From an uncultured Anaeromyxobacter sp. (GTDB lineage Bacteria > Myxococcota > Myxococcia > Myxococcales > Anaeromyxobacteraceae), in the NCBI GenBank assembly GCA_903904005.1, contig CAIVAR010000049.1:1-42461 (forward strand): a DNA stretch of 42,461 bases, given 5' to 3'. Made by a program: the position numbers and the translations under genes. The notes under the pieces are model-generated. The model worked only from the letters and a program-made list of their open reading frames with translations. It did not search any database and had not been told where the DNA came from. This document shows positions 7,433-11,048 of the stretch, one piece after another; position 1 is the stretch's first letter; each line of letters opens with the position of its first letter.

Positions 7433-7888
7433 TCATCTCCGCCGGATGGCCGGCAAGTCGGCGAAGGGCTCGCTCCGGGCCGTGGACCGGAACGCCTCGG
7501 CCAGATCGACGGGAGGGGCGACGGCGCGGCGCGCCTCCAGGTCGAGCCAGGAACCGGTCACGGTGACGACGGCCATCTCCGTCCCGTCGACCTTCCAGAG
7601 CCGGTGGCGGATCGACCAGCGGGAGGCGTCCGGGGCGAGCCCCGCGCAGCACGCGTCGACGAGCACCTCCTCGCCGATGGACGCCTCGCGCCGGTACTCG
7701 ATCTCCTCGCGGAAGAGCACCGGCCCGAGCTGCAGAGACTGGAAGCGCGTCCACGGGTAGCCGAAGGAGGCGAGCAGCGCCACCCGGGTGTCGTTGGCGA
7801 ACTCGGCGAAGGCGGTGTTGCGCAGGTGTCCGTTGGCGTCCGCGTCGGACCAGCGAACCACGAAGCGGCGGACGAACGGGGTGCTCAT
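7433..7888 (-). CDS. Hotdog-fold acyl-CoA thioesterase (4-HBT/FadM type)
   Basis: A 151-aa 4-hydroxybenzoyl-CoA thioesterase-like protein. The N-terminal RFVVRWSDADANGHLRNTAF contains the family's catalytic-acid segment (D-x-D-xx-GH-x-N; D15/D17, H21). The body FREEIEYRREASIGEEVLV and SIRHRLWKVDGTEMAVVTVTGSWLD matches the remaining hotdog strands. It would hydrolyse acyl-CoA thioesters in the cytosol; chain length is unknown. The ATG overlaps the stop of the exported PLC-like protein gene as ATGA, so translation is probably coupled, though the functional link between the two is obscure. Confidence 0.88.
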   Translation of the reverse strand: MSTPFVRRFVVRWSDADANGHLRNTAFAEFANDTRVALLASFGYPWTRFQSLQLGPVLFREEIEYRREASIGEEVLVDACCAGLAPDASRWSIRHRLWKVDGTEMAVVTVTGSWLDLEARRAVAPPVDLAEAFRSTARSEPFADLPAIRRR

Positions 7889-9810
7889 CGGGGCGCCGCC
7901 AGGTCGTCCCGGGAGCCGAAGAAGTAGCGGCCGTCGAACTGGGCGCGGAGGAAGACGCTGTAGGACGGCCCGATCACCGCGTTGCCGTAGCCTGCCGGGT
8001 AGACCACCGGGCTCGTGAAGGGGATCTCCACGCCGAAGCCGAGCTGCACCACGGTGGCGAAGACGAGCTGGGTCGCGAAGGTGCGGAAGGGGGTCCACTC
8101 GACGATCGGGAAGTTGAGCGCGATGGAGCGGAGCTTGGCGGCGCCGTAGATGGAGGTGGGAGCGGGAGGCGGCCCCACCGGCGTCAGGATCACCACGTCG
8201 GAGAGGTAGCCGTAGAGGACGGTGTCGATCTCCCGGCCGACGACGATCTGGAGGGAGCCGAAGCCGATGCCGAAGCTCCGCTCGTAGGGGATGAGCCCGC
8301 CGCTCGCAGCCGCCACCCCCACCGAGCTCAGCGCGCTCGGGGAGGCGAGCGCCAGGATGGGACCGAGCAGCAGCATGTCGCCGGGGATGAGCCAGAAGGG
8401 CAGCCGCAGGTCGAGCCGGAGCCCCGTCCGTGCGGGCACGCGCGGGAAGTAGGAGCTCGTGCCCATCACCGAGCAGATGGCGCCATCGTTGCACGCGTCG
8501 GTCTGGGCCGACTGCATCGTGAAGCCCACGTCGACGAAGGCGAGCCCGGTCCCGACCGATCCGGTCAGGCTCTCGGCGCCGAAGCCCATCCGGACCCCGG
8601 CCGAGAGCGAGCCGTAGAACTGGGCGGTGTCGGTGCTGAAGCCGCCCCAGCCCAGGTTGGCGGTGGCGCTGGCGAAGGCGCCGATGAAGGGGCCGAGCTC
8701 CTCCCGGAAGCGCGGCAGGTGGACGTCCCCCTCGCCGCGGCCGGGCACCGGCATGGCCCTCATGATCGGGGTGAAGTGGCGGGCCAGGCCGTCGGCGCCG
8801 GCCACCGAGGGCTGGTACACCTCCTTGCAGGAGTCGAAGCCGAAGATCTCGGCGGCGGGCCGGCCGAAGCCGATGGCCAGGACGCCGAGCTCGTCGCCGG
8901 GGCGAAGCGCGGAGACGAGCTGCGCGAGGCTCTGGACCACCGCGTCCGACGCCCGGCGGAGGTCGGAGTCCCGCATGAACGAGTCGCCGAAGAGGATGGC
9001 CGGCTCGCCGCCCCAGGTCGCGCCGTCGTACCCGAACTCGTTGTAGTAGTCGTGGGTCCCCTTGCGCCAGGCGTCGCTCCCCCAGGTGCCGACCACGTGT
9101 CCGGACGCGAAGGTGTCCTCGAGCCAGTGGAGGGCGTACCCCTCGGCCACGAGGACGCGCAGGGCGGCGGCGGGACGCTCGGCGGGCGGGGGAGGGTTGG
9201 CGGCGTAGCGCTGGGCCAGCTCGAGCGCGGCCATCTGGTACTGCAGGTACATCCCCATGGCGTTGAGCGGCGCCCCCTCCTTCACCGCCTCGCGGGTGTA
9301 GGCCGCCGCGTCGTTGTCGACCCGGGGCCGGAGGAAGTGGGCGTTGTTGGCCCCGGCCCGGCTCACGTACTCGGGGTCGGCCGCCTGCAGTTCCAGGTTC
9401 GAGGTGGCGATGGCATTGAGCGTCTGGTCGCGATCGCGGGCCCGGTCGAGGTTGTCTTGCGTCTCGGCGGCGACGCGCGCGACCTCGAGGATCCAGTCGC
9501 TCGCGAGCGTCCGCTCGGCGACCTCCTTCGGGCTGCAGGAGTGGTCGCCGGACATGGCCGGGAACGCGGCGAAGTCGATGCAAGCGGGCTTGAGCCCCTG
9601 GTCCCCGGCGCTGGGCGTGGGGCAGAGCCTCGCCGGGAGGGCCTTGCGGGCCTCGGCCCAGAGGGCGTCGAAGACCGCCCGGTCGGCGGGCGGGAGCTTC
9701 TGGACACCCGCGACCGCGATGTTGCGGTGCTCCGGGTAAATCCAGGCGGATGCGGCCGCGGGAAGGGCGGCCAGTACCACCGCGAGCCAGGCGGGTCTGG
9801 AGAATCGCAT
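7885..9810 (-). CDS. Exported phospholipase-C/S1-P1-nuclease-like protein with a probable outer-membrane beta-rich C-terminal half
   Basis: 641 aa. The signal peptide (1-22) ends ASA, so cleavage would leave Trp23 as residue 1 of the mature protein. In zinc-dependent phospholipase C and P1 nuclease the N-terminal Trp is itself a zinc ligand. Other ligand-like residues are His28, Asp89 in SGDHSC, His158 in NNAHFL, and the H-x3-D-x5-H block His228/Asp232/His238 in ALHWLEDTFASGH. His253 follows in THDYYNEFG, where Asn257 or Glu258 would replace the usual H-x3-E acid. Residues from about 385 onward alternate hydrophobic and polar positions with many Gly/Tyr/Phe (SVGTGLAFVDVGFT, RTGLRLDLRLPF), as in outer-membrane barrels, ending ...GRYFFGSRDDLAAPR. 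The domain assignment is inference from motifs. Enzymatic substrate (phospholipid, nucleic acid or none) is unknown. Translationally coupled to the thioesterase. Confidence 0.68.
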   Translation of the reverse strand: MRFSRPAWLAVVLAALPAAASAWIYPEHRNIAVAGVQKLPPADRAVFDALWAEARKALPARLCPTPSAGDQGLKPACIDFAAFPAMSGDHSCSPKEVAERTLASDWILEVARVAAETQDNLDRARDRDQTLNAIATSNLELQAADPEYVSRAGANNAHFLRPRVDNDAAAYTREAVKEGAPLNAMGMYLQYQMAALELAQRYAANPPPPAERPAAALRVLVAEGYALHWLEDTFASGHVVGTWGSDAWRKGTHDYYNEFGYDGATWGGEPAILFGDSFMRDSDLRRASDAVVQSLAQLVSALRPGDELGVLAIGFGRPAAEIFGFDSCKEVYQPSVAGADGLARHFTPIMRAMPVPGRGEGDVHLPRFREELGPFIGAFASATANLGWGGFSTDTAQFYGSLSAGVRMGFGAESLTGSVGTGLAFVDVGFTMQSAQTDACNDGAICSVMGTSSYFPRVPARTGLRLDLRLPFWLIPGDMLLLGPILALASPSALSSVGVAAASGGLIPYERSFGIGFGSLQIVVGREIDTVLYGYLSDVVILTPVGPPPAPTSIYGAAKLRSIALNFPIVEWTPFRTFATQLVFATVVQLGFGVEIPFTSPVVYPAGYGNAVIGPSYSVFLRAQFDGRYFFGSRDDLAAPR

Positions 9811-9845: not shown

Positions 9846-9857
9846 GAGCCGCGCGAT

Positions 9858-11048
9858 ATGTCCGGGCCCTTGTCTCCCATCGAGGTCCACGTCCGCGGCA
9901 GCCTCTCCGACGTTCCCGCCCCGGAGTGGGACCGGCTCTGGGCGCACGAACCGGACCGGGCCACCCCCTTCCTCTCCCACGCCTGGCTCGACGCGCTGGA
10001 GCAGTCGGGCGCGGCTGTTCCCGAACGGGGCTGGACCGGGCGCCACCTGCTCCTCCAGCGCGACGGGCGGACGGTGGCGGCCCTCCCGGCCTGGTCCCGG
10101 ACCGACTCCCACGGGGACTTCGGCCGGGACTGGGAGTGGGCGGGTGCGGCCGAGCGGGCCGGGATCGCCTACTACCCGAAGCTCGTGGTGGGTGTGCCCT
10201 TCACCCCCGCCACCGGCAGGCGGCTGATCGTCGCCGAGGGGGAGGACCGGGCCGCGCTGGCCCGCGTCGCCGTCGCCGCCCTGCGCGAGCTCTGCGCCGA
10301 GGAGGGGATCCGCTCCATCCACGTCCTGCACCTGCCCGAGGAGGACGCCCGGGAGTTCGAGGCCGCCGGCCTCTCGCTCCGCGTCGACTTCCAGTTCCAC
10401 TGGGTGAACCGGGGGTACCGGACCTTCGACGACTTCCTGGCCCGCTTCTCCTCGAAGCGGAGGAACGCCATCCGCCGGGAGCGGGCCGCGCCGGCGGCAC
10501 AGGGGATCGTGCTGCGCACCGTCCGGGGCGACGAGCTGGGGGAACGGCCGGCGGCATGGGCAGCGGACGTGGCGCGGCTGCACGGCCACTCGGTGTCCCG
10601 GATGGAGTGGGGGATGCGCTTCCTCGAGCGGCCGTTCCACGAGCGGGTGATGCGGTCGATGCCGGGCGCGCTCGAGGTGGTGGAGGCACGCCGGGAGGGG
10701 AAGCTCGTGGCGATGGCCTTCAACGTCGCCTCGCCGGCGAGGCTCTTCGGCCGCTACTGGGGCTCCGTGGAGGAGCACCCCTTCCTCCATTTCAACGTGG
10801 CCCTCTACCACTCGGTCGAGGATTGCATCCGGCTCGGGCGGGAGGTCTTCGAGGGCGGGGCCGGAGGGGACCACAAGCTCTCCCGCGGGTTCGAGCCGGC
10901 GGAGGTCTGGAGCGCCCACCACTTCCTCGACGAGCGGCTCGACGCGCCCATCCGTCGCCACCTCGCCCAGGGGTGCGTGGCGGCCCGTCAGGCGCTCGAA
11001 CGCTGGCGCGCCGGGTCGGCGGTGCTCAGGGGCGACGACCCCAGGTGA
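9858..11048 (+). CDS. FemAB-like / GNAT-fold protein of the DUF482 (COG3146) family
   Basis: 396 aa, cytosolic, with no signal peptide. The N-terminal VRGSLSDVPAPEWDRLW and TPFLSHAWLDALEQSG, the central FSSKRRNAIRRER, and the strongly conserved C-terminal stretch with GGAGGDHKLSRGFEP and SAHHFLDERL are hallmarks of the FemAB-like (peptidoglycan biosynthesis/recognition) family annotated as DUF482. It is related by fold to aminoacyl-tRNA-dependent FemX transferases, but no activity is established. The ATG is the first start giving the conserved N-terminus; a TAAAGA lies 10 bases upstream. Its 3' end overlaps the convergent methyltransferase gene by 23 bases. Confidence 0.85.
   Translation: MSGPLSPIEVHVRGSLSDVPAPEWDRLWAHEPDRATPFLSHAWLDALEQSGAAVPERGWTGRHLLLQRDGRTVAALPAWSRTDSHGDFGRDWEWAGAAERAGIAYYPKLVVGVPFTPATGRRLIVAEGEDRAALARVAVAALRELCAEEGIRSIHVLHLPEEDAREFEAAGLSLRVDFQFHWVNRGYRTFDDFLARFSSKRRNAIRRERAAPAAQGIVLRTVRGDELGERPAAWAADVARLHGHSVSRMEWGMRFLERPFHERVMRSMPGALEVVEARREGKLVAMAFNVASPARLFGRYWGSVEEHPFLHFNVALYHSVEDCIRLGREVFEGGAGGDHKLSRGFEPAEVWSAHHFLDERLDAPIRRHLAQGCVAARQALERWRAGSAVLRGDDPR

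Follow-up and report, generated by a model that had tools for sequence, protein, structure and literature searches.

The solved S1/P1 nucleases are soluble enzymes. In one member of this group, SmNuc1, nine residues act as zinc ligands: Trp27, His32, Asp71, His88, His141, Asp145, His151, His175, and Asp179 (PMC11705217). The PC-PLC family of zinc phospholipases C (PLC) has been described from a few Gram-positive genera, Bacillus and Clostridium beside Listeria (PMC10576769). An enzyme domain is joined to an outer-membrane barrel in PlpD, whose N-terminal lipase domain, carried on an Omp85 barrel, was once thought to be secreted and has been shown to be periplasmic (PMC11116518). A published description of a PLC/P1-fold domain combined with an outer-membrane barrel was not found in the open-access papers searched.

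A protein predicted to have this combination is encoded in the window (the whole 42,461-nucleotide stretch of DNA analyzed here, from an uncultured Anaeromyxobacter sp.; Table I). Its predicted fold and the order of its putative ligands are those of zinc PLC and S1/P1 nuclease, and it would work in the same way. With the zinc PLCs (B. cereus PC-PLC, the catalytic domain of C. perfringens alpha-toxin, and L. monocytogenes PC-PLC) it has in common an all-α fold, the N-terminal Trp expected after signal cleavage, and the order of His and Asp ligands. However, the window family has no sequence-level match to these enzymes and lacks the H-x3-E motif; it has a longer stretch between H6 and D123, containing an invariant Asp-His pair, and a predicted outer-membrane barrel where the PLCs have either nothing or a C2-like domain. 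Its hosts are Gram-negative, unlike those of the zinc PLCs. With the S1/P1 nucleases (SmNuc1, P1, S1, and TBN1) it shares the fold, the W-x4-H and H-x3-D-x5-H spacings, and an aromatic residue after the Zn1 His, but it has no match to the nuclease family profile and no H-x3-D motif, the nucleobase-pocket residues are mostly missing, and a barrel is added. PlpD and FplA (patatin-Omp85, "type Vd") likewise combine an N-terminal lipolytic-type domain with a C-terminal outer-membrane barrel. In their case both the enzyme fold and the barrel are unrelated to those seen here, and the window family has no patatin, POTRA, or Omp85 Pfam match. NspA, the N-domain of OmpA, and OmpW have a barrel fold like that predicted for the window protein (Z about 11-12), but lack an N-terminal enzyme domain.

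Table I. Features of the locus, with positions in the window; residues are in the mature numbering of the window protein
Feature	Position	Strand	Evidence and remarks
Whole gene, predicted exported zinc PLC/P1-fold domain + outer-membrane barrel	7885..9810	-	641 aa precursor, 619 aa mature
Predicted signal peptide, 22 aa, ends ASA	9745..9810	-	Predicted cut would make Trp the first mature residue
Predicted N-terminal all-alpha domain, mature 1-346, zinc PLC/S1-P1 fold	8707..9744	-	AF2 pLDDT 82, pTM 0.89; PDB matches
W1-I-Y-P-E-H6, predicted ligands of one zinc with D210	9727..9744	-	29/29; W-x4-H spacing as SmNuc1 Trp27/His32 (PMC11705217)
D67-H68 pair, candidate extra or replacement metal ligands	9541..9546	-	29/29; putative role; stretch apparently absent from PLC/P1
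D123-x12-H136, predicted Zn1 Asp and His	9337..9378	-	29/29; order as SmNuc1 Asp71/His88
H206-x3-D210-x5-H216, predicted Zn1 His, bridging Asp, and first Zn2 His	9097..9129	-	29/29; spacing equals SmNuc1 His141/Asp145/His151
H231-D232, second predicted Zn2 His and adjoining invariant Asp	9049..9054	-	29/29; usual H-x3-[DE] acid missing
D254 (GD motif), candidate third Zn2 ligand	8983..8985	-	29/29; putative role
Predicted outer-membrane beta-barrel, mature 348-610, about 8-10 strands	7915..8703	-	Model strands, structure match, beta-moment test
4HBT_2 acyl-CoA thioesterase	7433..7888	-	PF13279 4.5e-20; overlaps stop codon (ATGA); lineage-specific neighbor

The open reading frame begins with ATG. 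The initial annotation had pointed to a predicted cleavage after ASA that would leave Trp as mature residue 1, to an H-x3-D-x5-H block, and to a later THDYYNEFG motif; all are found in the protein (ASA followed by WIYPEHR; ALHWLEDTFASGH; THDYYNEFG), and the predicted junction is conserved. Trp directly follows the predicted cleavage site in all 29 aligned members, and the residue before it is small in each of them (Ala or Gly, and Ser in the two most distant). Judging from this conserved junction, signal peptidase I would cut between Ala and Trp. In two more distant relatives, L049:1463-3121:+ and L071:3674-5515:+, the residue after the predicted cleavage is Phe or Tyr rather than Trp, which would fit a role of residue 1 through its main chain only.

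An AlphaFold2 model of mature residues 1-346 was built from eleven family sequences. On comparison with the PDB, the top 25 rows (Z 10.0 to 7.8) are all zinc PLCs (C. perfringens and C. absonum alpha-toxin, B. cereus and L. monocytogenes PLC) or S1/P1 nucleases (SmNuc1, TBN1, S1, and P1; Z 7.8-9.4), and the first unrelated row is talin, with a Z score of 3.6. Residue 1 of the model pairs with mature residue 1 of the PDB targets. For helical proteins, Z scores under about 13 can be unspecific; the PLC/P1 fold is assigned despite this because one superfamily fills the list and there is a clear gap below it. Foldseek ranked the same proteins first with weak scores (best E 0.06), and the conclusion on the fold draws on a second structural alignment, not on Foldseek alone. 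Structure prediction therefore bears out the likeness to PLC and P1 nuclease noted from the sequence, with an all-α PLC/P1 fold predicted for the N-terminal half. Residues 214-254, which include part of the ligand set, are the least certain region of the full-length model, and residues 220-232 are of low confidence in the N-domain model.

Predicted metal ligands were compared in an alignment of 29 members extending down to ~20% identity. No variation is seen among these 29 at W1, E5, H6, D67, H68, D123, H136, H206, D210, H216, H231, D232, or D254. Eight of the nine SmNuc1 ligands have counterparts, in SmNuc1 order (W1, H6, D123, H136, H206, D210, H216, and H231), in keeping with the PLC/P1 ligand order that the initial annotation had proposed. 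The W-x4-H and H-x3-D-x5-H spacings are identical in the two proteins, and the former is also that of bacterial S1/P1 relatives. That W1, H6, H206, D210, H216, and H231 are invariant even in two members of ~20% identity argues that the pattern is not due to chance, and the order, spacing, and invariance of these residues are the grounds on which they are assigned to putative zinc sites. Between H6 and D123 lie 116 residues, as against 38 between SmNuc1 His32 and Asp71. The position of the ninth ligand, four residues after H231, is Asn in 20 members, Cys in five, Ser in three, and Asp in one, so that the H-x3-[DE] acid is not conserved; the following position is Glu in 25, Thr in two, and Val in two. 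The initial annotation had placed Asn or Glu in the role of this last acid. Asn235 and Glu236 were rejected as the Zn2 acid, since neither position is conserved among the 29 members, and the third Zn2 acid must come from elsewhere. D67, H68, D232, and D254 are candidates for supplying this ligand.

In the full-length AlphaFold model (pLDDT 72), long strands run from residue 350 to 608. Local pLDDT in the barrel region ranges from 42 to 88, and the strand count (8-10) and a helical stretch at residues 455-480 are uncertain in this model. Against the PDB, residues 349-607 match NspA (Z 11.8), OmpA (Z 11.1), and OmpW (Z 11.1); OprF is also matched (Z about 11-12), and the β-domain of EspP is among the Foldseek rows. 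In the averaged hydrophobicity, windows that alternate as barrel strands do number 65, compared with 21.7 ± 9.0 in shuffled sequences, and exceed the count in any of 500 shuffles. Outer-membrane proteins typically end in an aromatic residue; here the C-terminal residue is Phe in 13 of the 29 members and Tyr, Trp, or Leu in others, commonly within ...FDWRYYF, and the window protein has a short extra tail beyond the last strand. The amphipathic strands and the C-terminal aromatics of the homologs identify the C-terminal half as a predicted outer-membrane β-barrel; the strands, the matches to small barrels, and the shuffling test all agree with the earlier suggestion that this half lies in the outer membrane. 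Omp85-family proteins are encoded in the genome, making insertion of the barrel by BAM possible.

The window protein has no sequence match in Pfam, NCBIfam, or the PDB. Searches of Pfam and NCBIfam with 20 family members gave no relevant family; the PF02265 (S1-P1 nuclease) profile is unmatched by these 20 and has no match in the protein's own genome, and the PF00882 (Zn_dep_PLPC) profile is unmatched by family members. Searching the PDB by sequence and by profile returned only SLC12A4 (E 0.12), which looks like composition noise and was discarded. With hhalign against six S1/P1 proteins, only the N-terminal 28 columns (residues 1-28) align (E 0.079). Because the PF02265 and PF00882 profiles are not matched and one ligand position of the characterized enzymes is not occupied, the window protein is filed as a separate family, unnamed in Pfam and NCBIfam, that shares the PLC/P1 fold.

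Homologs with 31-84% identity occur in Myxococcota, Acidobacteriota, Ignavibacteriota, Chlorobiota, and Bacteroidota. Full-length examples include those of Anaeromyxobacteraceae (83% identity), Thermoanaerobaculia/Acidobacteria, Ignavibacteria, Chlorobiota, and Bacteroidota, the last with a cultured carrier, the isolate Algoriphagus lutimaris (KCTC 22630). Whole-genome searches found a homolog in 8 of 195 Myxococcota genomes, in 14 of 395 genomes (ten of them strong) of the phylum of L012, and in 2 of 297 genomes of the phylum of L007; a homolog was also sought on viral contigs, and none was found there. The window genome belongs to the Myxococcota, with Anaeromyxobacteraceae as nearest relatives, and encodes a second family member of 39% identity (L051:1093-3036:-, contig C99) in a separate paralogous group. 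The family tree runs largely along phylum lines, with paralogous groups within the genus of the window. The two-part layout is seen also in distant members (L047 and L048, ~20% identity, and L049), and a plasmid-encoded protein of Hymenobacter yonginensis, whose annotation is hypothetical, has it as well. The predicted enzyme-barrel combination is thus widespread among bacteria while having no family name in Pfam or NCBIfam, and the initial observation is confirmed for a conserved gene. A set of other Myxococcota proteins (L080-L088, e.g., L081:376-2058:+ and L087:403-2502:-) has an H-x3-D-x4-GH core (AFADHFLTDAFASGHL, GQHFLQDAWSMGHM) and resembles the N-domain at the profile level. These proteins have no obvious barrel and no Pfam or NCBIfam name, and L081 and L083-L086 are without an obvious signal peptide or N-terminal Trp.

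The initial annotation had also described translational coupling to an acyl-CoA thioesterase. The overlap is real (the thioesterase ATG at 7888-7886 and the TGA at 7887-7885, within CGATGAGC), but the pairing is limited to the window and its close relatives L004 and L005; it is therefore not part of the function of the family, and says little about function. The window locus and the distant homologs have no neighbor in common, and no gene neighborhood is conserved across phyla, for which reason an operon-based function was dropped. On the other side, a divergent gene for a FemAB-like protein (9852-11048, + strand; PF04339, 5e-122) adjoins the gene, and L005 has a homolog at the same place. Two genes upstream of the Thermoanaerobaculia homolog (L006:3303-4946:+) lies a gene for a PLD-domain protein with a lipoprotein-like N-terminus, and the overlapping downstream gene encodes an exported protein without a family name; these neighbors possibly form a lipid-processing cluster in that lineage. 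The Chlorobiota homolog (L011:6008-7468:+) is overlapped by a downstream gene encoding a DUF3943 protein.

Taken together, the protein is probably an exported phosphoesterase of the zinc PLC/S1-P1 fold, tethered to the outer membrane, with three zinc ions and, by preference, a phospholipid-type substrate. It would be exported by Sec and cut by signal peptidase I at the Ala-Trp junction, upon which the freed N-terminus of W1 would bind one zinc together with H6 and D210. A second zinc would be bound by D123, H136, H206, and D210, and a third by H216 and H231 together with an acid supplied from some non-standard position. By analogy with solved relatives, a metal-activated water would attack the phosphoester. 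BAM would insert the C-terminal barrel in the outer membrane, most likely holding the enzyme domain at the periplasmic side of the membrane, with phospholipids of the inner leaflet, or products of their breakdown, as possible substrates. The substrate is the weakest step; a phospholipid or phospholipid product is favored on two grounds: the protein would sit at the membrane, and only part of the nucleases' nucleobase pocket is retained (F137 after H136). A more detailed proposal, of a multi-phylum family with a trinuclear zinc phosphoesterase in an outer-membrane protein, a Zn2 acid remodeled through the D-H insert or D232/D254, and phospholipids on the periplasmic side of the outer membrane as substrate, is advanced tentatively.

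The phosphoesterase reading is backed by the retention of the two-part layout in distant members, whereas the missing H-x3-[DE] acid, the lack of a profile link to PF02265 or PF00882, and the uncertainty of the modeled 214-254 region count against it. With the same fold and anchoring, the protein could instead be a nuclease or a nucleotidase, like SmNuc1 and P1, for the salvage of nucleic acids or nucleotides in the periplasm: the S1/P1 enzymes, SmNuc1 included, score close to PLC (Z 9.4 vs 10.0), the W-x4-H spacing is that of SmNuc1 and bacterial S1/P1 relatives, and an aromatic residue, F137, comes directly after H136, in the place of the nucleobase-site aromatic. This is somewhat unlikely, given that the residue three after H136 is Leu, Arg, Ile, Thr, Glu, or Val rather than the Asn/Asp of the SmNuc1 nucleobase site, that no G-G-N/T motif follows the final His of the H-x3-D-x5-H block, and that a membrane anchor would be unusual for S1/P1 nucleases. 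Loss of the third Zn2 acid from its usual place, and the lack of a conserved operon partner pointing to a pathway, would also suit a PLC/P1 fold that is now a non-catalytic, metal-stabilized periplasmic domain with a structural or sensing role. We regard this as improbable: eight of nine ligand positions, along with D67, H68, D232, and D254, are invariant across phyla to ~20% identity, a pattern difficult to account for unless the metal site works.

As to which side the predicted phosphoesterase domain faces, the periplasm is more likely than the cell surface, because a compact N-terminal domain precedes a small barrel, and the N-terminal enzyme domain of PlpD was found to be periplasmic (PMC11116518); on the same grounds, the displayed enzyme envisaged in the initial annotation is doubtful, and a surface-displayed topology was judged unlikely. 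An autotransporter, which would display the PLC-like domain outside the cell or release it, would have a similar layout of N-terminal enzyme and C-terminal barrel, and the EspP β-domain is among the Foldseek rows. It is nevertheless very unlikely here: the top-scoring matches are 8-stranded barrels, so small that little space is left for a passenger to cross, the passenger would be a compact helical domain, metal-binding as predicted, and the analogous domain of PlpD proved to be periplasmic (PMC11116518).

If the phosphoesterase reading is correct, this protein would add to the outer membrane a candidate enzyme for the processing of lipid or phosphate, one that is conserved in several Gram-negative phyla, and its family would offer a naturally occurring example of an altered third zinc site.
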